NCBI GenBank assembly: GCA_019096065.1
Contig: JAGUCH010000001.1
Span: forward strand, 12,648,001 to 12,712,000
Source of the DNA: Paracyclopina nana
Lineage: Eukaryota; Arthropoda; Copepoda; Cyclopoida; Cyclopettidae
DNA: 64,000 nucleotides
Direction: 5' to 3'
In this document: piece by piece, positions 2,810-63,475 of the stretch
How positions within the stretch are numbered: position 1 is the stretch's first letter
Layout: the number at the start of each line of letters is the position of its first letter
Notes under the pieces: model-generated
Databases searched by the model: none
Told to the model about the DNA's origin: nothing
The model's input: only the letters and a program-made list of their open reading frames with translations
Translations under genes and position numbers: made by a program

Positions 2810-2818
2810 GAAAATGGA
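2810..2818. repeat. 9-bp target-site duplication, left copy
   Basis: The 9 bases GAAAATGGA lie immediately before the left terminus (GGGACCAT...) of the fold-back element. They are repeated exactly at 5442-5450, immediately after the right terminus (...ATGGTCCC). A perfect 9-bp duplication abutting both ends fixes the element boundaries. Confidence 0.95.
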
Positions 2819-3020
2819 GGGACCATATAAAATGCCCAAATGGCCCAAAATGGCCCAAATGGCCCAAAATTTTAAAACCTAAAAATTTCAACTCAGGCAG
2901 CACCCTTGGGCAATGAGGAGTCCAAATATGAAAATTATTTTTGCCTAACTCAAAGGAAAGTCACTTAAATATTAACTTAAAGATTGAAAAAATTATTGTA
3001 TAAAAGCCTGGAGGCCCAAA

Positions 3021-4311
3021 TGGCCCAAAATTTTAGATTTGAAAAATTCCAATGCAGAATGATCCCTTGTGACTAGGAGAGTGCACTCATAAAATTTGAC
3101 AATCCTAATACTTAAGGAAGTACCTTAAATAATAACTTAAACATTGTTATTGTGCCAGGCACAAAGTGGCCCAAAATTTTAGATTTGAAAAATTCCAATG
3201 CAGAATGATCCCTTGTGACTAGGAGAGTGCACTCATAAAATTTGACAATCCTAATACTTAAGGAAGTACCTTAAATAATAACTTAAACATTGTTATTGTG
3301 CTAGGCACAAAGTGGCCCAAAATTTTAGATTTGAAAAATTCCAATGCAGAATGATCCATTGTGACAAGGAGAGTGCACTCATAAAATTTGACAATCCTAA
3401 TACTTAAGGAAGTACCTTAAATAATAACTTAAACATTGTTATTGTGCTAGGCACAAAGTGGCCCAAAATTTTAGATTTGAAAAATTCCAATGCAGAATGA
3501 TCCATTGTGACAAGGAGAGTGCACTCATAAAATTTGACAATCCTAATACTTAAGGAAGTACCTTAAATAATAACTTAAACATTGTTATTGTGCCAGGCAC
3601 AAAGTGGCCCAAAATTTTAGATTTGAAAAATTCCAATGCAGAATGATCCCTTGTGACTAGGAGAGTGCACTCATAAAATTTGACAATCCTAATACTTAAG
3701 GAAGTACCTTAAATAATAACTTAAACATTGTTATTGTGCCAGGCACAAAGTGGCCCAAAATTTTAGATTTGAAAAATTCCAATGCAGAATGATCCATTGT
3801 GACAAGGAGAGTGCACTCATAAAATTTTACAATCCTAATACTTAAGGAAGTGCCTTAAATAATAACTTAAACATTGTTAATGTGCCAGGCACAAAGTGGC
3901 CCAAAATTTTAGATTTGAAAAATTCCAATGCAGAATGATCCCTTGTGACTAGGATAGTGCACTCATAAAATTTGACAATCCTAATACTTAAGGAAGTGCC
4001 TTAAATAATAACTTAAACATTGTTATTGTGCTAGGCACAAAGTGGCCCAAAATTTTAGATTTGAAAAATTCCAATGCAGAATGATCCCTTGTGACTAGGA
4101 GAGTGCACTCATAAAATTTGACAATCCTAATACTTAAGGAAGTGCCTTAAATAATAACTTAAACATTGATAATGTACCAGGCAAAAATTAGAACAAAATT
4201 TTAGATTTGAAAAATTCCAATGCAGAATGAACCCTTGTGACATGGAGAGTGCACTCATAAAATATGACAATCCTAATACTTAAGGAAGTGCCTTAAATAA
4301 TAACTTAAACA
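3021..4311 (+). repeat. 146-bp tandem array, left arm (9 units)
   Basis: Units begin TGGCCCAAAATTTTAGATTT at 3021, 3167, 3313, 3459, 3605, 3751, 3897 and 4043, a strict 146-bp spacing. A degenerate ninth unit starts at 4189. Units vary at a few diagnostic places: CCCTTGTGACTAGG versus CCATTGTGACAAGG, TACCTTAAAT versus TGCCTTAAAT, and GTGCCAGG versus GTGCTAGG. Each unit starts with the same GGCCCAAA box that is repeated at the element tips. Confidence 0.95.
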
Positions 4312-4329
4312 TGAAACATGAAACAATGA

Positions 4330-5239
4330 AATTTGACAATCCAAAATCTAAAATTTTGGGCCACTTTGTTCCTAGCACATTAACAATGTTTAAGTTATTA
4401 TTTAAGGCACTTCCTTAAGTATTAGGATTGTCAAATTTTATGAGTGCACTCTCCTTGTCACAATGGATCATTCTGCATTGGAATTTTTCAAATCTAAAAT
4501 TTTGGGCCACTTTGTGCCTAGCACAATAACAATGTTTAAGTTATTATTTAAGGTACTTCCTTAAGTATTAGGATTGTCAAATTTTATGAGTGCACTCTCC
4601 TAGTCACAAGGGATCATTCTGCATTGGAATTTTTCAAATCTAAAATTTTGGGCCACTTTGTGCCTAGCACAATAACAATGTTTAAGTTATTATTTAAGGT
4701 ACTTCCTTTTGTATTAGGATTGTCAAATTTTATGAATGCACTCTCCTAGTCACAAGGGATCATTCTGCATTGGAATTTTTCAAATCTAAAATTTTGGGCC
4801 ACTTTGTGCCTAGCACAATAACAATGTTTAAGTTAATATTTAAGGTACTTCCTTAAGTATTAGGATTGTCAAATTTTATGAGTGCACTCTCCTAGTCACA
4901 AGGGATCATTCTGCATTGGAATTTTTCAAATCTAAAATTTTGGGCCACTTTGTGCCTGGCACATTAACAATGTTTAAGTTATTATTTAAGGCACTTCCTT
5001 AAGTATTAGGATTGTCAAATTTTATGAGTGCACTCTCCTTGTCACAAGGGATCATTCTGCATTGGAATTTTTCAAATCTAAAATTTTGGGCCACTTTGTG
5101 CCTGGCACAATAACAATGTTTAAGTTATTATTTAAGGTACTTCCTTAAGTATTAGGATTGTCAAATTTTATGAGTGCACTCTCCTTGTCACAAGGGATCA
5201 TTCTGCATTGGAATTTTTCAAATCTAAAATTTTGGGCCA
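4330..5239 (-). repeat. 146-bp tandem array, right arm (6 full units plus a fragment)
   Basis: Same unit as the left arm in reverse orientation. The boundary motif AAATTTTGGGCCA ends at 4363, 4509, 4655, 4801, 4947, 5093 and 5239, again exactly 146 bp apart. The order of unit variants does not mirror the left arm, so the arms have changed copy number independently. Confidence 0.95.
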
Positions 5240-5441
5240 TTTGGGCCTCCAGGCTATTATACTGTATTTTTTTTAATCTTTAAGTTAATATTTAAGTGAC
5301 TTTCCTTTGAGTTAGGCAAAAATAATTTTCATATTTGGACTCCTCATTGCCCAAGGGTGCTGCATGAGTTGAAATTTTAAGGTTTTAAAATTTTGGGCCA
5401 TTTGGGCCATTTTGGGCCATTTGGGCATTTTATATGGTCCC

Positions 5442-5450
5442 GAAAATGGA
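5442..5450. repeat. 9-bp target-site duplication, right copy
   Basis: Exact copy of 2810-2818, directly following the right tip of the fold-back element. Confidence 0.95.
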
Positions 5451-18250: not shown

Positions 18251-20136
18251 AAGTGGCCTTGATGGGCTAACGTCATTTGTTTATGCCTTCGCTGTTCAAT
18301 CAGATAAGCAACAGGGCTTTTTCGGTCGGCACAAGGCTAGGCCAAAGCGAAGTGAGGAGCAGATCACCTTTTGAGTGCGGCAGCACCGAAAGGGAAAGCT
18401 CTGGCGCGAACGCTCTTTGCCTCCGCGGCTATATCTTTTTTAATTGTTTGTTAATGGTCAAAAGCTTTCACCGTCAGCGCTAATGGGGCTTTCTCTTGTT
18501 TCTTCCCCGTTATAATTACGCCGAGTCAAAACGTCAACCGCAAGCTCGCGTGCATAACATGTTGGGACGTATGCGCCGTAAAATGCCTGGTTAAGTGCAT
18601 GGCGCCCGTTAAATTGGCTTTGATGATGTCGACTTCGACGGCGACGCGTTGCTCGGCTGTTCGCCTCGATTCGCAATAAGGGAAACGAACCGATGGGAAA
18701 GCAAAGTTGACAGCCCGTGTAATGCAATCGGACTAATTTGTTCTCCCCCAGAGAAATTGCCGCTGCTCCTGCTGCCGGGACATTATATGCTAAAGAAGCG
18801 ATCAAAAGCTGGGCTCGACCCGGAGGGAGTTTGCATGCAATGCCCTCTTATCGCGCACGAGGCTCGAGGAGGGAAATGCGATTGAATTCAGCAAAAGCCT
18901 TGGACTCGATTTTACGCCCCGGTCATCAATTCACGCCACGTTTTGGCAACAATGGAAACGCGCCGGGCCGTGCGGCATCCGTCCGGCCTTCGTTACTTCG
19001 CGCATTGGCCTTTGCTCGGGTCGCCTTTTGAAGCTGGTGATGGCATGCGGGCCATATGTGTGTTAAGTCGCGGCCAACGACATTTCCTCGTCGTCGTCTT
19101 CGCAAAAGCTCCTTTGAAGTTAAAAGCAATCGAATGGAATGCAAAGGGGTTTTTCGGTCCCCCTCGCTTTCCTTTACCCCAAAACTCGAGTTACCCCAGC
19201 ACTAAGATGATGATGATGACGACGACGGCCAACACCGGATATTGCCGTCTTATGCACGTGACCGATCCCGATATCAGCTTGCAGGCGAAGGCGAGCGATA
19301 ATGAGGATGGCATTTTTCATGACATTCCTATGTAGCGCGATCGCTGGTGAAACGCGGATCGTTGCCGTTCGGGGCCTCATTTGGCATTCCGTTGGCATCC
19401 TCGTCCGCACCATCATGCTGCAGCGGGGCTGGAACAAAGGGGGATCATCGGCATTGTCTTGCCATGAGGTGACAAGCTTCGCTTTTCCGTCCTTTTTAGC
19501 CGGGATGTGAATCAGTTAGCACCTGAGCGGCAGTTGTCGGTTGGAACCTGGATGAGTCACCCCGCTTTTATCCTGGCAAAGCCATAATATAACGCGCTAC
19601 GACCAAAAGCCGTTGATCCCCGAATGGACGAAGGTCCCGCATCGTCATTATCGTAGCATTGCTGCATCGTCTAGACGAACTTTCTCCGCATGTCCCTGGC
19701 CATAAGTGCGGAAATTTTTGCAAGGTGTCTTCGGCCCAAGAAGCATGTTGGGATCGAGCCGGTCCACGTTAGTGCGGCGCGGAGCGCGACGCTTTCACGC
19801 GCCGCGAGGACGACGAGAGGGACGGCGCATGCATGCGCGCTAACCTAGCCTTCCCTTCCCTTTCCCGCTTGCTTCTGCCTTCTTCCTTTGCAGTTTGCGC
19901 CATGCCATGCTCGAGGAGCGCTTGCTTGCTTGCGTGCTTGCTTGCCGGCCACCAAGTGCTTCTTGTCAGACGTCGCGAAGCCCAGTCCACTCCGTTCGTG
20001 CTTCGGGACGACAACCAGTGATTCCACGCGGTCTCTCCACGTAGTGACTACATAACACGCGACGCGGCAACTGTCAGACGGATTTATGCAGATACGCTGC
20101 CGCTGACCACCCGACGACCCACGGACCCACAGCAAC
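18251..20136 (+). promoter_or_regulatory. GC/CpG-rich upstream region of the KLF6/7 gene
   Basis: From about 18.3 kb up to the KLF6/7 start the sequence is visibly richer in G+C and CpG than the rest of the window. It includes a CTTG tetranucleotide patch near 19920-19945. It directly precedes the gene and probably holds its 5' UTR and promoter. I could not fix a TATA box, initiator or upstream exon. The long open frames here look like a by-product of low A+T content, not genes. Confidence 0.4.
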
Positions 20137-22030
<1,894 letters not shown>

Positions 22031-39441: not shown

Positions 39442-40101
39442 TCACTCGTGATAAGGAGAAGCGTGTCTTTTTAGATGCAACGCCAGGTGGTCCGATCGGG
39501 CGAATTTGCGACTGCAGACGTCACAGTGGAACGGCTTGTGGCCAGTGTGCTTTCGCAAATGTCGGGTCAGCTCGTCTGACCGGGCGAAGCGCCAGCAGCA
39601 CCCAGTCCATGTGCAGCTGAATGGCCTCTCCCCTGTGTGCGTCCTCTCGTGGGCCTTCAAGTGGCTGCTTTTTGAGTAGACCTTATCGCATCCATAAAAC
39701 TTGCACTTGTGGCTCTTCCTCTTGGCCCTTTTAGGCCTCATGTGAGTGTCAGGCCCGACACTGTGATACTCTGGGGTATTATGAGTTGTCGTGCTCTCTC
39801 GCTGCTGCGTGTCTATCTCAGCTGCTACTGAACACGCAGCAGTTGAAGAAGGCTGTTGAATCCAACAGTCGAATTGGTCGATTTCCCCGAAGAGTAGCCG
39901 ATTAGTATCGAAGACCTGATGATGGATGAGCTCATCATCGTTCAAGTAGGATGCCAAGTCCTCCTCATCTAGCGGTGGTGAAGAAGTCGTATTTCGCACA
40001 TCTTCGAGAATTTCTGGCAAGTTGACTGGTGCTGCTGCTGTAGGCGAGTAGAAAGAGTGGAGCACGTCTTGCAAAAACCAGTCCTCTGTCGTTTCGTGCA
40101 T
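39442..40101 (-). CDS. Intronless Krueppel-like factor (KLF1/2/4/5-like zinc fingers)
   Basis: Predicted nuclear transcription factor of 219 aa from the first ATG (40101). The N-terminal half is acidic ([15 protein letters not shown]) and Ser/Thr-rich, plausibly an activation region. A basic cluster [11 protein letters not shown] (about 121-131) looks like a nuclear localisation signal. Three C2H2 fingers follow at about 133-155, 163-185 and 193-213, with helices [16 protein letters not shown] and RSDHLALH, followed by only six residues. The second linker HTGHKPF resembles the HTGHRPF of KLF1/2/4, so I place it near that group. The frame is open for six codons before the ATG (from about 40119), and an AG lies just upstream, so a short 5' exon cannot be excluded. 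It lacks the intron that splits KLF6/7 after finger 1, which fits retroposition or intron loss. It lies about 17 kb from the KLF6/7 gene. Confidence 0.9.
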
Positions 40102-43100
40102 TGTCTGCCAATCAATCACTGTGCGACTGAATTATTTGATAAACATGCAAGTGATAGTGGCTCCTATGGGCCCTGCTTCAAAAATTGATTTGCTCTTCTT
40201 ATCGGAGAGACATTTAAGAGCACTTTTTATCTCTGCATATTTAAAAGGTATACTACATGTGTATGTAATATACTTGAGCCCCTTTCCAAAGGGCAGAAGG
40301 CTATCGATTGAAGATGGCATGCACATACAAATTTTCCTCGATGCCACAATGATTGCATTGTCTTCTTCGGATAGCACAACGGCCAGAAAAATGCTGCTAT
40401 ATTCGCTTATGCCACCGTATACGGCTTTTGAAGGTTCGGACGTCTTGTTTGCTCTGAGTCAACACAGTGATCGTACAACATGTTTCGTCGACGTCAAAAT
40501 GTGAGCTAATAGAAGACGAAACGGCCACTTCATGATGATTCGCCAAATTTCTTTGTTTTGCCGACGAAGACTATGGCATGGCAGCAGAAATATACTGGCG
40601 GTATTCAATGCACGTCATCGTTTCACTAATGAGAGGCTCAAAGAGACAGTCGAGACCCCTTCTTCTCCTCCTCCTTCCGCAAGCTGAAGGAGCTAGTTCT
40701 TCGTCAGCACAAAAATCTTTGTGTTTGCCTCTCTTGAGCTCATGCGACTCACGTCGTAATAAAAGTACAAGCTGCGAAAAGTAAACCATAGCCTCATCAG
40801 CAGTGCAAGCGGAGTTAGCCTCCTTGCTCAAGTAGAAAAAATATTTACTACCAGCCTGTTAGAAATTCTGTGTGAAGCAGTATTTTTCCGAATCGCCAAA
40901 ACGAGTCAATGATCATCAAGGCTGCTCCAAATAATGCACACGGCAAGTAGCAATTCAAGTACTAGCTTCCACCGTACGTCAGTGTGCCACCGGCAAAACT
41001 TGCGCTTGCAGTGCAGCGCTTAGGAGTACAAACTTTTTCACGCACTGAAAAACAATGCCACTTTCATGATCGTCAATGCTAAGCAGCGTATGGCAGGTGA
41101 TTTACGACGAATGGTGAACGAGAAAAACGCATTTGAAGAATTCCTACCATTTTTTGTGTGTGTGGAACAAAAAGGCAATTTTCCTAAGGCTGCAGACTGC
41201 AACTACGCGACTGCTACCATTATTCTGTTGAAATGGGCTATGGACATAAAATGACTGCAGCAGCCAGCGCTCCCTATTTCGTAAGACTAGACACACGAGA
41301 AGGAGCTAGGGAATGGCTAAACGCGTTGCGAAAATCCCTCAAGCTGCCTTTTTCTGCACTTGGCTGACGTGTGTTCGTAATGTTCAAGAGGAACTTCCTC
41401 TCTCTTATGGAAATGAGAATAAAATGTTCCTGGCTTTAAAGGGTAGCTAGGCTCTGGTGATGAGCATTGGGGAACCGAGTCACGTCCCCGTACCAGCCAG
41501 TGGACCGGGGGAATCAAACTTTGGGGATTTCACGACGACGAGGGGCAGGAAGACTTGCTGGTAGTGTACAGAAGACATTTTGACGACGTCGCGATCGAGA
41601 CTCCAATCACTTGACCCTTTTTTCCCGCTCTGTCAGGCGGAAATTTCCCCCTTGCAAGATGAGGAGGCCAAGAAGTGAGTAACTTTGCAAGTTCGCTCGT
41701 TGCACTGGGAAACTACTGCTACTACGAGTCCGCATCCCAAAGTTGCTGATGATCCCTCATCATCAGCTCTAGCCCGATGCCACTTTCATTAGCTAACTTT
41801 CATCCTCGAGCTCTATTTGCTGGTTTTACTGCAATGTAGCACTTGGATGCAAGCGCAGCATCCAAATACGCGACTTACATATCCTATGTCGAATCATATA
41901 GTTGGCCGGCACTGTGGGCCGAAATATCAATCAAACCCTTCCATCGTGCATCTGTGATGACGTAAATTGATTCGAATAACATCGTCCTCCGGCAATTTGA
42001 TCTCATGGGTGCACAAAAACTAATGCGCTCTCTGCATTCACCGGCCAAAATTGGCTTCAAACAAAATAAGCTCGAGTGCTTTTTGTGGACCATCTCGTTG
42101 ATGACACACACTCGTAGCACCACACCTACCTTGTTTGCGAGTGGATCAAAATTACGCCCAATTTTGCATACATTCTGTGAAACGTCGACATTGTTTGCCA
42201 ATCTCTCTAATGAATTCCATTCCTCTTTTTTCACTGCCAACGTTAATGCACAATTCTCGTGTCGGAGCCATTATGGGGAGCACTCCATCTTTTCAATTGC
42301 AGTCGAAGTATCCTTATTGGAATTTTATGCTAGAAGACGGCCGCTAACGTGCTACGAAAGAAAATAATCCCATAGAGAGAAAGAGAGAGAGAGAGTTCTA
42401 CTGTTATATTACAATGTCTTCAAGTCATTGCAAAGGAAATATTCAAATTGGCTCAATTTGTATTCAGCATGCACCGACAACAGCACTCCTTCCCTATTGA
42501 GCCGCGCGAGGAGAAGAAGAGAGCCATAGCATCCCGCATCCATCCAGCAGAATTTCAACTTTGAACCCCCCTGAAAGTGTTATGTACTATTGATATAAAA
42601 CGTCTGCTGACCTACTTGTAGGCCTTCTCTCTCGCGTTTTATTCTGGGAAAAAAGAGCATCGGTGAAGAAAGTCGAAAGGCCTTGCCGGCCGCGCAACTT
42701 TGGCGCCAGCCTTTACTGCTTCTGAAGGCCAACTAGGTCTGTCTAGACGCTGTAAATAGCCTTCGCAGCAGCACGCTTCTTGCTGTTCGTTCTGGGACAC
42801 CACTGCGGGGAAATTAGGCCAAGAAAGCATCTTTTACGTGCATGCGTCCTTATCATTACTTTATGGCAATGCAATAAACAGGCATTGTGCTACTGTCTTG
42901 CTTCTGGCCCCCTTCGTGATGTGTAGGCCTATATAACTAGGCCTGCTTGTTCACCGTTAAAGATAGTAGTCATAGCTTTCCATGCCCCTTTTTCGTGATG
43001 TGCACTCGTTCTACGAAAAAGTGCAGATTTGTTTTGTCTGCATGACTTTGGCCTCAATTCGGTGAAGGAGGAATCCAAGCGAAAAAAGCCAAGGTCAGGT

Positions 43101-43194: not shown

Positions 43195-45556
43195 CTATTG
43201 CCGCTGAGGATTGAGGTCGAAGATTTCGATCAGAAGTGGCTCAATGAGTTTTGGGTTGACCTCGAGAAACACTTGGATGTGCGACTCGTTCAACCTGTGG
43301 AGGTCTTGAAGTTTTCCGATTAAACCGAGGTATGCGCGACGTGGCTCGCATCCAGAGTAGACCGTCTCCAAGTACCTTCTTAATAAGTAGTAGTAAGTGT
43401 CCTGCAATTAAAGATGGCAATATAGATTAATGATCGCACTAATTGGCAGTACCCACAAAAGGTAATTAAGCTATATAGCATCACACCAAATTGACTTTCA
43501 AATTGCATTTTTTCTTCTCAAGACGATGTGTGAGAAACTTTATTACCTGCTCAAGCTTAATTACGTCCTTGTGGACCACATTGCATCGTTCAGGGGTGAA
43601 AAGCGCAATTGCAGACAAGAGGAGCATGACATTTTCGTCTGACCTCCACTGTGGCTCAAAGGACTTGACGAACCGTTGATGTTCTTCGTACAAATTAACT
43701 CCCAATTGTGAGGCTTCTTTGAGAACCTCCAGTCGAAGTTCCCGAGGTCTGTCTTTGCTTGGTAACTAAATTAGAGGGGCACAAAAAGAGAGCTTGGTAG
43801 TGGAAAACATCCTAGAGTGACTGACTCGAAAATATGAGGGGAAAGCTTTTCTCTGCTCAATGTGGTAGTAGCGTATCAAAGGGAAATACATAGCCACTCA
43901 CCCGCCAAGAGTTTTTGTCCGGATCATAGTTAAGCACAGAGCGAAGGATCATCAGTTCTGTGCAGCCCCCTTTTAGCAAAGCAATTTGGTCAGCAATGCA
44001 CATATTGGCAAAGGGTGTGATTTTCTTGGTCATCCGGATAATCCGTTTTATGGCAAGGTCAGTTAAGTTGATCACGCTAATCAAATTGTTGGGCTCCGCT
44101 TGTGAATATAGCTGCTGAAAAAAGAAAGAAAGGATCAAGCTAGATACTGTAATTATGTAATATGATTCCACTTCATCCTCACGTCTCGTTCGAGCTCCAT
44201 AGGTTCAACAAGGGACCTCGAAGCAACAAAGAGCTCATCCAATCTGGCTCGTTCTTGATCGTTCAATTGGGTCAACCCCATGGGTATTTGCTGAGCCTCG
44301 GGCTGCTCGACCTTCAATTGGCTCTCGGAGCACGCCGAAACATTCGGCTGGTGGGCCTCATTGGACGTAGTTGCCATATCGGCCAGTTCAAATGTATGAA
44401 ATTCAGCCTTAATGGCGACAGCTACAATGTCGTCCAAATTGTCAAAGGTCCACTCGCCGAGGCTACTTGATGCGTCCTGTAGCTGAAAGGACTGATTGGC
44501 TAGGTTGAACTGGTCAGCTGCTGGAGCGGAGGTGCTGATTGACGAATTTGATTGATTCGAGGTTGACTGACTCTCATTCTCAAAGGCTGCTGCTTGTGGA
44601 ACTTGTCTTTGATGATTCTGAAATTGACCAACAGTGGTGGAGGAAAAGTTGCGACTACTAGCTCCAGAGAAGCTTCCAGGAGACTCTGGTTGCACCAAAA
44701 GTTGATGAAACGTCGCCTGCTGCTTGGACTTGCGTGGCATTTTCGCTGGGTTGATTTCGCCTTCCTCACTCTTGGATCGGGCGGATGGCAAAACCCTTGC
44801 TTGAGGGCGCCTGCTTGACATCAATATAAGATCATTACCCATATTTCCTCCAAGCTCAGAGGGAGACAATGAAATGTTGTTTTGTGGGGACGTTGGCCCT
44901 CCAGATGAATCGTTGGTGGCTGCTGGAGAGCAGCTATCGGTTTCAAGGAGAGATGATGACTTTCGATTCAATTGCCTCTGATACTTTCGCACGCGGTTCT
45001 CCTCGATTTTGATCTTCTTCTGGTGCTTTGCCTCTTCCGAGAGGATGTATTCCTTTTTCATTCCTAGAAAAACATTTGTTTTTGTGAGGAGCAACAATAC
45101 CGAGATAAGTGGAGTTTTTCCGTTTGTTCTCTTTTTTTAATGAATGTACAATCTCCCAGACGTCAGCCGACAGCAAGCCACGTTCAAGGCCAGGGGAAAA
45201 TATCTATAAATCAGGCGAGGAAATATCACCAACAAGTTCTGCTTACCCACTTCGAAGCATCTTTTTAGCCGGCACTTCTGGCAAAAACGTCTCGTTATCA
45301 CGGTTACCTCGCACTCGTTGTTAAAAGGACACTTGAATTCCTGTCAAAAAATAAAATACAACAATCAGGAAAATGGGATTGCTTGATGATGCGATTATTA
45401 AAATCCCACCTTATCCTTCAGAGCATTTCTCCGGAAGAAAGCTTTGCAACTCTCGCATGTGACGGCATTGAAGTTGTGGCCTAAGGCCTTGTCACCGCAG
45501 ACCGCACACACTTTGCACTTCTCCATGGACTCATCACAGCTTTTCTCGGCCTCCAT
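43195..45556 (-). CDS. Hr96: Nuclear receptor HR96 (NR1J class), 6 coding exons
   Basis: Ligand-regulated nuclear transcription factor of the HR96 group, which in arthropods responds to xenobiotics and lipids/sterols. Coding exons (minus): 45556-45410 within an exon starting at 45641, 45340-45247, 45063-44183, 44114-43902, 43765-43547 and 43401-43195. The product is 586 aa. The DNA-binding domain is complete: Cys 17, 20, 34, 37 and 53, 59, 69, 72, P-box ESCKA (residues 35-39), and the C-terminal extension GMKKEYILSEEAKHQKK. A long low-complexity hinge (Ser/Gln-rich) follows in exon 3. The ligand-binding domain spans roughly 340-586 and includes the helix 3-5 region (ADQIALLKGGCTELMILRS) and a terminal AF-2 helix LLIEIFDL (574-581). 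All junctions keep frame. The first in-frame ATG (45556) precedes CAVCGDK by 16 residues; upstream frames lack an ATG. A 5' non-coding exon ends at 45714. Gene is intact. Confidence 0.95.
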
Positions 45557-57120: not shown

Positions 57121-57195
57121 AATCGAAGAACGCTGAAAAAAATGCTCAAGTGGGTGGTGTTTGCTAAGCCTCAAGAATTCAGAAAAAGAGTCGTG
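57121..57195 (+). CDS. Short coding exon, paralogue of the exon at 62985
   Basis: Between an AG (ATGGTAG|AAT) and a good donor (GTCGTG|GTAAGT) lies a phase-0 frame of 25 codons containing KMLKWVVFAKPQEFRKRVV. The exon at 62985-63047 encodes KMLKWTVTDKPKEFRRRFV and also ends in GTG|GTAAG. Between them codons differ mostly at silent or conservative positions (CCT/CCC, GAA/GAG, TTC/TTT, AGA/CGA), which points to selection on the plus-strand protein. An ATG inside (57142) means it could be an alternative first exon instead. It may belong to the gene starting at 46956. Function unknown. Confidence 0.5.
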
Positions 57196-60100
57196 GTAAG
57201 TCAAAGCTTTTTATATCAATACTGCGCGTGATCGATGAAAGAGCCTATGGCATATGCCATAAAGCATAACAGTTATTATTGAAGAAATGTCAGCTCCAAA
57301 GATGAGATGCTATTCGGATCTTTGACGCGCTTAAAAGTCGCAGTGAGCAAAACCAAGGTTTCTTTTCTTACTGTGACCTCTTCGCACAAGTATATGGCAT
57401 GAGATGAACAATTTGCAACGCTAGAACCCTGCGGTTTTTCGGCGCGACTTAAAAGTCGGGTTTTTATTGCCAGCTTAGGCTCTTGGCCAATCTTATTAGC
57501 CGATTCGTTTCTACTTGAACGTCTTTCTTGGCCCCCCTTTTTACAAGCCTTTGTTGGACCTGTCATCGGCTGGGCGAGGCAGCATCCATTTGTCAGTATT
57601 GTTAGCTGCTGCTGTATCGTAGACCCATATAGATTATGATTGATAAATCAGGATACTATTCCTTCTATGTTTGGAGCCTTGTTAGTCGTTAGCCTGAAAA
57701 TAGATTTTCTAGAGTTTGAGGCTTCGTTTCAATCTTTGTTAGTGTGCTTATCTAAAAATAATTAGTTGCCAGGGCAACCGCTCGAAAGGCTCCTCTTGGG
57801 ATGATTTCCTCGAAAGGAGAAATCGACAACTTTTGCTGAAAACTGGGATGCTATTCTTGAGCTATTTTCATCCAAAAGCACTGTTTTCTCGAGACAACCT
57901 CATTGGTTATTCGCGCATGTCAACACACCATCTTCTTTTTTACAAATCATGCCTTCGGGAGAGGGGTGGAGAAGCCTGAAGAGTTGCTCGCTGAAGAAAA
58001 GCATTCCTGAGCCACTTCTTGCAGGTAACGGTCTAATGCTCAAATCGTCTTAAGCATATTTTTCCGTACAGACTCACTCGAATGGAACTGCCGTCAACAG
58101 AGGACGGTTTCTAGATACTTACTCTCCTGAGCGTTTTATTGCCATTTCTTGTGGTTTTCCAGTTTTGGAAAAAACGATCTATTAAGCTAGAAAATCCCAC
58201 AAACCAAAGTAGGGTGGATCGAATTTCTTTTCCTAGTGCAGCATTGCAACGCCTCGTCGTCGTGGAGGAAAAATGTTTCTGGAAAATTGGTCCAAACTTG
58301 ACATCTTAGCTTCGTCTTCTTCGTTGGCACCAGCCAATTATAAAGAGCCTCAAGCCGTTTTACGATTACACGGTCTTTACAGACGACGGTGACAAATTCC
58401 ATTACTTTTTTGACAGCTTGAAGGCCGAGATCTGTTTTTGGTGTTGCACTCATGGCAGATGAATAACTTTGTGGCAATGAACTTTGTTTTTCGTATTGTT
58501 GTCCTGTGCAAAAATTCCGTCCGCGCGCTTTGTTTTTGAGGTGCTGCCACAACGTACGCGGCCTTCATGCACAAAAAGTTTGTCGCCTTTTTTTGCTCGA
58601 TTTAACCTGCCCCTACATTTGGGATGTACCTTGGATTTCCTTGTTGAATATGGCTATTTATAGGTTCTTTTAATTCACATTAAGACAGCTTAAAAGCTCC
58701 TTACGAGAGTACATATTGCTCGTAATGTGTATTCTATAAGAAAGTGCTTTAAATCAGGGCAAATGTATAGCAGCTCATTCATGTGAGGCCATACAATCAT
58801 CTCTTAAGAAATCTAGAATGAGTACTTATCATTTTCGGTTCAGTGTACTCTATGCGTACTTTTTTTGGACAAGAAACCTATATTTATTCTGTTTGTTCCG
58901 CTGCGGTCCAAAGGCAATAAAGGGGCGTAGGAGGACAGGCAAAAAACACGCGGTATTGCTGCTGCAGTTGGAGGGATGCTGAGTGAAATTTCAATCAGGA
59001 TGTAGGTCGCGTCCATGTTGTACTATACTCGATTTTATTTGCCTTGTCTCTTATCGGATCTGTGCTTTTTTAGCATTTTTTTTGCTTCCCTTTTTTTCAC
59101 TGTCAACAAGCATACAAAGGTCAAACTTTCACTAATGCCACTTGAGGCCTCCATTTTCCACGCTTGGATGACTGGCTGAAATCAAGTGCTCTTATGAGGA
59201 GCCTTTTTAGCTGGTGCAGCAGTCAGGGTGGTCATGCGATTTGCAGCTGAGCTGAGTTCATCCGGTGGTGACTATACAAACATTGTGCATCTGGCGATGA
59301 TTCAAAATGGGTCAAGTTTTCACTTTTCCTGCATTTTCCTGCTAGTAAAAATTATGCAAATGCGAGTAAATTCAAAGCAGGCTATGGAATATGTAGGTGG
59401 TATATACGCGTAGCGCGCTGTGTACATGAGCGATTGGAAGAACCACTTCTAGTTGCATTGCTTCAGGTGAGGAAAGCTTCCAATCTCCAAAGAAGACATG
59501 ACTCCACTGCTTCTTTTGTGTGTCAAAAATGCGCTTCTTTTAACGGTCTACTTTTATTGGCCCTAGGTGGCGAGATTGCATTATTTTCGTGAGTGGATCA
59601 AGTCGGTCCCTTTGGGGAAAACGCAAATGAAGACCACATTTTTATCAAAAATAGCTAAAGAGGCTTTTTACTGATAGCTTTGGAGTTTGTTTTATAATTT
59701 TAATAATGATGGTAACTCAAGCAAAATCGTGAGACTCTCTTTGTTTACTCTGTTCTTCTACTTCACTTTTTTGTTACTTATGCTTTGTTCATGAATTAAG
59801 AATGCCCTGTGGAATGGAAAAAATTGTCTTTAGGAATAATAGTTCCCTACCCCCTCAGCAAAAGTTAGGCCCCAAGTAAAATCCCTGAGAGGTCGGGACA
59901 GATTTGAGAACCGAGCTACTATTTTTCATCCGAGTGTAGCGAGGAAAGGAAAAATGTGCGAGGGATTTTTGGTTACCAGTAGAGAAAAGTGAATCTCTAT
60001 GCTGACTGCAAATATACGAGTCCAAATCGGGACCGAGCAGCATTTTTAATGGCAATTTTTGCTATTTTGTTTCATTGTTTTCAAAAAATGTTCTCGAAAA

Positions 60101-62984: not shown

Positions 62985-63047
62985 ATTGAAAAAATGCTCA
63001 AGTGGACAGTGACAGATAAGCCCAAGGAGTTTCGAAGGAGATTTGTG
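62985..63047 (+). CDS. Short coding exon, paralogue of the exon at 57121
   Basis: A phase-0 exon of 21 codons between AGAAGTAG|ATT and TTTGTG|GTAAGA, encoding IEKMLKWTVTDKPKEFRRR and two further residues (F, V). It is 63 nt against 75 nt for its partner at 57121. Both keep frame when swapped, as required for alternative, mutually exclusive use. It lies 429 bp before the globin start on the same strand. Whether it belongs to the 46956 gene, to an upstream part of the globin transcript, or is an alternative first exon (ATG at 62994) is not decided by the sequence. Confidence 0.5.
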
Positions 63048-63475
63048 GTAAGACTGCCTAACTCATCATTGGTTTACGCGGAAGTGACGAGGCTACTTTT
63101 TTGGATTATAAGGATTCAATCTGAGATCTCATCCGGAATCAATCAGAGCTTGCGCGGGAGAAATTGTCGTACTGCCACACTAATTGTAGCAGATATCATC
63201 TTTGTTGGGTCTTACGTGTCCTCTCAAAAAAAACTTGTTCTCCAAATCGTGTCTTCCATCAAAACTATCCGAATTCAACTAGTTTTAAGAGTCGGTGCAG
63301 TTTAGCCTAGAATTCAATTTAGTTCATTGCGAACTGCCGCAAGAGAGGGAGGGAGAGAGAGCCGCGCGCAACTGCAAAGCGGAGCAAAAGGGAGGAGAAA
63401 GCTCTGATATATCAACAGTTGGTCGCGCGATATCGTCACAGTCTCTCGGCTGACACAGAATCATACACACGCATC
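63048..63475 (+). promoter_or_regulatory. Upstream region / 5' UTR of the globin gene
   Basis: The region has a purine-rich GAGGGAGGGAGAGAG patch followed by GC-rich GCGCGC motifs. The frame of the globin is open upstream of its ATG back to a stop at 63320-63322, and TTTAG|TTC at 63322/63323 could act as an acceptor, so an N-terminally longer form is possible. No clear TATA box. Confidence 0.35.

Follow-up and report, generated by a model that had tools for sequence, protein, structure and literature searches.

The window analysed here, a stretch of 64,000 nucleotides, contains an insertion of 2,623 bp at positions 2819-5441 whose two inverted arms are made of tandem repeats, and this locus raises the question of which kind of mobile element it is, how its arms were built and which transposase could have moved it. 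The reading favoured, to which a probability of roughly 60% is given, is that of a non-autonomous, foldback-type, cut-and-paste DNA transposon, with arms built from duplicated units and moved in trans by the DDE transposase of a relative, most likely a Mutator-like one.

Boundaries, target-site duplication and anatomy

The insertion shows identical inverted tips of 19 bp, GGGACCATATAAAATGCCC at 2819-2837 (+) and its complement at 5423-5441, and is bordered by two copies of a 9-bp sequence. From left to right, the locus contains the following features:

2810..2818 (+), left copy of the target-site duplication, 9 bp, GAAAATGGA
2819..3020 (+), left outer domain, 202 bp: the 19-bp tip, three TGGCCCAAA and a stretch colinear with the unit from 2860
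3021..4188 (+), left array, eight full units of 146 bp
4189..4312 (+), left array, ninth unit, degraded and truncated, with its TGGCCCAAA motif altered
4313..4343 (no strand), centre between the arrays, 31 bp
4344..4363 (-), right array, stub of a seventh unit, 20 bp
4364..5239 (-), right array, six full units of 146 bp
5240..5441 (-), right outer domain, 202 bp
5442..5450 (+), right copy of the target-site duplication, 9 bp, GAAAATGGA

When up to three mismatches are allowed, the 19-bp tip has two matches in the whole window, which are the two tips themselves, and 0.02 are expected by chance. The two copies of GAAAATGGA are identical and the bases outside them are unlike, with TTGGGA preceding the left copy and CTAGTT following the right one, which confirms the perfect 9-bp duplication that an earlier note on this DNA had claimed. 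Since a shift of the boundary by one base breaks the identity of either the tips or the duplication, its length is exactly 9 bp, a value known from one copy of the element. The probability that two 9-mers outside the element agree by chance is 7.6e-6, and an estimate by random draws (2,000,000 draws, whole window) gives 7.5e-6. The 9-mer is present in the window at four sites on the + strand, both flanks included, and at two on the - strand, so that for this particular word at a fixed + position the chance is nearer to 3e-5, which is still small. The inverted tips and the 9-bp duplication speak against a retroelement or a Helitron, and both were set aside. The A+T content is 66.9% in the element versus 56.1% in 1,991 flanking bases.

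Aligned in register from the tips, the arms (2819-3916 and 4344-5441) show 25 mismatches over 1,098 positions and no gaps (97.7% identity), and the left and right outer domains show seven differences. TRF reports a period of 146 bp in both arrays, with 8.9 copies in the left one (3012-4312) and 6.2 copies in the right one (4344-5248). In the centre, the 16 bases at 4313-4328 are without evident origin in the unit, the 14 bases at 4329-4342 are identical to unit positions 72-85, and one more base completes it. The earlier note had described a palindrome of about 2.6 kb with essentially no unique interior. The scant interior is borne out by the 31 bp found between the arrays, but the arms are unequal, with eight full units against six, and the palindrome is thus without symmetry about a single point. 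The element shows what characterises a foldback element, namely long inverted arms with tandem repeats and a small middle domain or none, together with a target-site duplication (9 bp, in this single copy) at intact tips, and on this anatomy of tips, duplications and tandem-unit arms its description as a complete fold-back transposon stands. Folded as RNA, the central 921 bases give -660 kcal/mol versus a mean of -191 for 20 shuffles, a strong fold which is expected of any palindrome and is no sign of function.

Coding capacity

In the six frames of the element, the longest stop-free stretch comprises 65 codons, and the element is therefore non-autonomous. No transposase was found in the window among the 14 ORFs scanned in Pfam, out of 44 listed (at least 110 aa), and no Rfam family reaches its gathering score across the window.

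Relationship between the outer domain and the repeat unit

The motif TGGCCCAAA heads all 14 full units and is also present in three copies near each tip and in one copy in the right stub; in the degraded ninth unit of the left array it is lost. Read inward, it adds up to 11 copies from the left tip and 10 from the right tip. Bases 42-202 of the outer domain can be aligned end to end with the unit consensus with 106 identities, 38 mismatches and 19 gap letters, and the score of this alignment is 88 versus a best of 31 in 2,000 dinucleotide shuffles. The local alignment, which spans unit positions 1-126, has a score of 56 versus a shuffle best of 36 (2,000 shuffles). Without the first 15 bases of the unit, the scores are 58 end to end (shuffle best 38) and 41 locally (shuffle best 33), and the last 61 bases of the unit alone score 46 (shuffle best 30). 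The signal is located in the head of the unit (TGGCCCAAAATTTTA) and in its last 61 bases, which include the block CTTAAATA-TAACTTAAA-ATTG. The middle of the unit shows a weak similarity: the score of positions 16-85 is reached by 43 of 2,000 shuffles and that of positions 16-100 by 32 of 2,000, and the score of a reverse-complement control is reached by 23 of 2,000 shuffles end to end and by 78 of 2,000 locally. Since the middle does no better than this control, the alignments do not demonstrate that the unit in its entirety descends from the outer domain. The simplest reading of the colinear ends would be that a stretch resembling the outer domain gave rise to the unit. The tandem units of Galileo are said to contain secondary transposase binding sites (PMC3573991), and by analogy with them TGGCCCAAA probably represents a putative site of this kind.

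Probable exchange among units

The 14 full units contain five informative sites (46, 54, 102, 130 and 136), each with a minor base seen in two or more units, and all five are variable in both arms. Of the 10 pairs of these sites, eight contain all four combinations and the other two contain three. Identical units are found within the left arm (L1 and L5) and in different arms (L2 of the left arm and R5 of the right arm). The unit variants do not follow a mirrored order in the two arms, and the idea that one arm was recently copied as a simple mirror image of the other was rejected for this reason. From the distribution of the variants, recombination or conversion among units, including across arms, would be the simplest account, with repeated mutation at the same sites as the formal alternative.

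Comparison with known systems

The FB and FB4-NOF elements of Drosophila, some copies of which have little or no interior, combine 9-bp duplications with long inverted arms built of tandem repeats. The element resembles them in its arms, its 9-bp duplication and its scant interior, and differs from them in its repeat unit and tips, by description and not by sequence.

Tetris is the nearest system in anatomy and Tm1 is the nearest with a known transposase. Tetris, of Drosophila virilis, is an apparently non-autonomous foldback element that contains an outer flanking domain and a variable number of units of about 220 bp in each arm, with duplications of 8-9 bp in three complete copies and of 9-10 bp in four rearranged ones, and a 37-bp stretch common to its unit and outer domain is taken as the origin of the unit (PMC4079207). 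The foldback form, the outer domain followed by tandem units, the duplications of 8-9 bp and the stretch shared by unit and outer domain are the points of likeness (PMC4079207), which is one of description and not of sequence. The unit has about 220 bp in Tetris and 146 bp here. Tetris also differs in that the similarity is found here at both ends of the unit and not in a 37-bp stretch, and in that the element is almost without a middle domain.

Tm1, of root-knot nematodes, shows duplications of 8-10 bp, mostly of 9 bp, in 45 of 53 complete copies, and has a Phantom/Mutator transposase (PMC3169594). It shares with the element the FB-like composite arms of tandem repeats, the prevalence of 9-bp duplications and a repeat number that is unequal between the arms, whereas its repeats are of 13-15 bp, its 7-bp ends are asymmetric and one copy is known to encode a Phantom-type transposase (PMC3169594). 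Rehavkus, whose TIRs are 26-400 bp long, makes 9-bp duplications and carries a minisatellite ahead of its 3' TIR, and it resembles the element in the length of the duplication, in the TIRs and in the tandem repeats near a TIR; it differs in encoding a PHD-finger transposase, and in the account drawn on here its minisatellite is not described as forming both arms (PMC6446971). Galileo shows foldback-like arms that reach about 1.2 kb and in one subfamily contain tandem units of about 210 bp in a number that differs per arm, and is set apart from the element by its 7-bp duplications and its place in the P superfamily (PMC3573991).

Superfamily and alternative explanations

The superfamily is most likely Mutator-like, an assignment that is unproven. 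The 9-bp duplication lies within the range of 8-11 bp given for Mutator-like elements (PMC6446971), and the initial GGG and the arms of 1,098 bp agree with their often long TIRs and with G/C in the first three bases, which is supportive and not diagnostic. Most arthropod MULEs show G/C in the first three bases, and their TIRs range from 13 to 1,193 bp (PMC13359780). The Foldback/Mutator type proposed in the earlier note agrees with the architecture and with the length of the duplication, but parts of the same pattern are shared by Merlin and by Galileo, of the P superfamily.

The hallmark of the Merlin superfamily is a DDE transposase of the IS1595 type. A non-autonomous Merlin element with foldback-like arms, moved in trans by a Merlin transposase, is the alternative that survives best, as an unlikely one. 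Merlin elements are defined by 8- or 9-bp duplications and conserved 5'-GG ends, and contain TIRs of 24-462 bp and, in several families, internal tandem repeats (PMC8101967). The element starts with GGG and has a duplication of 9 bp, and it is because of the duplication length, the GG ends and the internal tandem repeats that Merlin has to be considered. However, the in-register arms of 1,098 bp are above the Merlin TIR range, and long inverted arms of tandem units are not described for any Merlin in the parts of PMC8101967 drawn on here. In Daphnia pulex, one Merlin family is listed, a point that matters only for a host of that kind, together with ten Mutator families, all said to be Phantom-like (PMC2884549), and this list leaves the choice between Mutator and Merlin undecided even for a Daphnia host.

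Next in rank, and improbable as well, is a foldback element from a different superfamily (hAT, P or another) or from one not yet described, which has to be considered because foldback architecture is convergent. Elements of the hAT superfamily have target-site duplications of 8 bp, versus exactly 9 bp here. Galileo is foldback-like yet belongs to the P superfamily, but its duplications of 7 bp do not agree with the 9 bp of the element (PMC3573991), and for Tetris the transposase that moves it was not found (PMC4079207).

That the locus is no transposon but a satellite array duplicated in inverted orientation, or else a product of misassembly, is very improbable. The long arrays, the highly similar units and the inverted orientation might suggest it, but the ends are precise, the 9-bp duplication is perfect and lies in unique flanks, the arrays are unequal, and nothing outside the element in the window matches it convincingly (best E = 0.49 among the 30 matches listed). 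An assembly artefact in particular would be unlikely because the unique flanks, the target duplication, the unequal arrays and the 2.3% divergence between the arms are unlike an inverted chimera.

Search for relatives

An exact pattern of the first 16 tip bases has matches in four viral contigs (L001-L004). All four diverge from the tip directly after these 16 bases, L001 and L003 share one unrelated context, and no other match of the four contigs to the element is longer than 30 bases among the matches listed; as relatives they were discarded, and they would be chance matches. The 19-base start of the unit and a gapped pattern of the tip repeat gave no viral contig, and exact patterns of 33 bases of the unit and of the 19-base tip gave no match in prokaryote genomes, results which say little, as both are poor places for an animal transposon. 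Two 16-base motifs of the element were not found in published full texts, where sequences are rarely printed. No crustacean foldback element was found in the literature searched, judged by title and start of abstract, and the word "foldback" has no occurrence in the paper on D. pulex transposons (PMC2884549). The search was narrow, and in the sequence collections and literature it covered the family of the element is unnamed.

Proposed mechanism and significance

For a non-autonomous foldback transposon moved by a Mutator-like enzyme, the following course can be proposed. An autonomous relative, most likely a Mutator-like one (of the Phantom or the Rehavkus/FB kind), would have provided a DDE transposase in trans. 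This enzyme would have recognised the tips and probably also the copies of TGGCCCAAA along the arms, and insertion would have taken place by a 9-bp staggered cut, later filled in as GAAAATGGA. The 146-bp units may have come from duplication of a subterminal stretch akin to the outer domain, with growth of the arms as a result. The arrays would then have expanded, and unequal exchange or conversion within and between the arms would have reshuffled the units until the interior was almost gone; the order of these events is a presumed one.

A further idea, put forward tentatively and as an unlikely one, treats the element as a foldback taken to an extreme: copying of a subterminal segment with a transposase site would have gone on until little more than mirror-image sites remained, and units would have been exchanged between the arms. 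Such a self-built array of binding sites might recruit or titrate the transposase, and could seed a satellite.

The element fits the known foldback kind and leaves the established picture unchanged. Its value lies in being a cleanly readable copy: a single sequence shows both where the unit probably came from and its later reshuffling between arms. Since foldback-like elements are known to cause inversions, as in Galileo (PMC3573991), and to be sources of satellites, as in Tetris (PMC4079207), a family of this kind would be worth mapping in the host.

Surroundings of the element

Of the 14 ORFs scanned in Pfam, 11 show no match, and the other three match families of zinc fingers or receptors, in two cases with a score under the curated cut-off. 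A Krueppel-like zinc-finger coding sequence is found by Pfam at 39442-40131 (-). Zinc finger protein 568 (E 3.5e-56) ranks first among its 180 matches in PDB, and KLF5 (E 5.7e-43) ranks first among the Krueppel-like factors there. A second C2H2 stretch at 20107-21231 (+) contains one finger-like match at the end of the ORF, with 20.1 bits, below the Pfam cut-off of 25.2. An inverted match of 114 bp (71%) joins 21849-21962 with 39522-39635, which suggests that the gene at 20107-21231 may have further fingers around 21.9 kb.

The stretch 43857-45136 (-) contains what appear to be exons of a nuclear hormone receptor. The ligand-binding exon, 43857-44204 (-), matches Hormone_recep in Pfam with 23.3 bits, just under the cut-off of 23.5, and its best match of 190 in PDB is a nuclear receptor domain (E 1e-9). 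The best 60 of these 190 matches also include designed proteins and kelch proteins, with no individual stretch that passes. Pfam gives no match for the neighbouring ORF, 44153-45136 (-). The zinc-finger and receptor sequences suggest that the window comes from an animal, and an HR96-like motif might hint at an arthropod, perhaps a branchiopod such as Daphnia. Finally, a direct repeat of 64 bp (73%) is found at 57137-57200 and 62989-63052 (+). Both copies contain an open frame in a common register (MLKW..KP.EFR.R.VV) with GTAAG at the end, and they could be the ends of paralogous exons.
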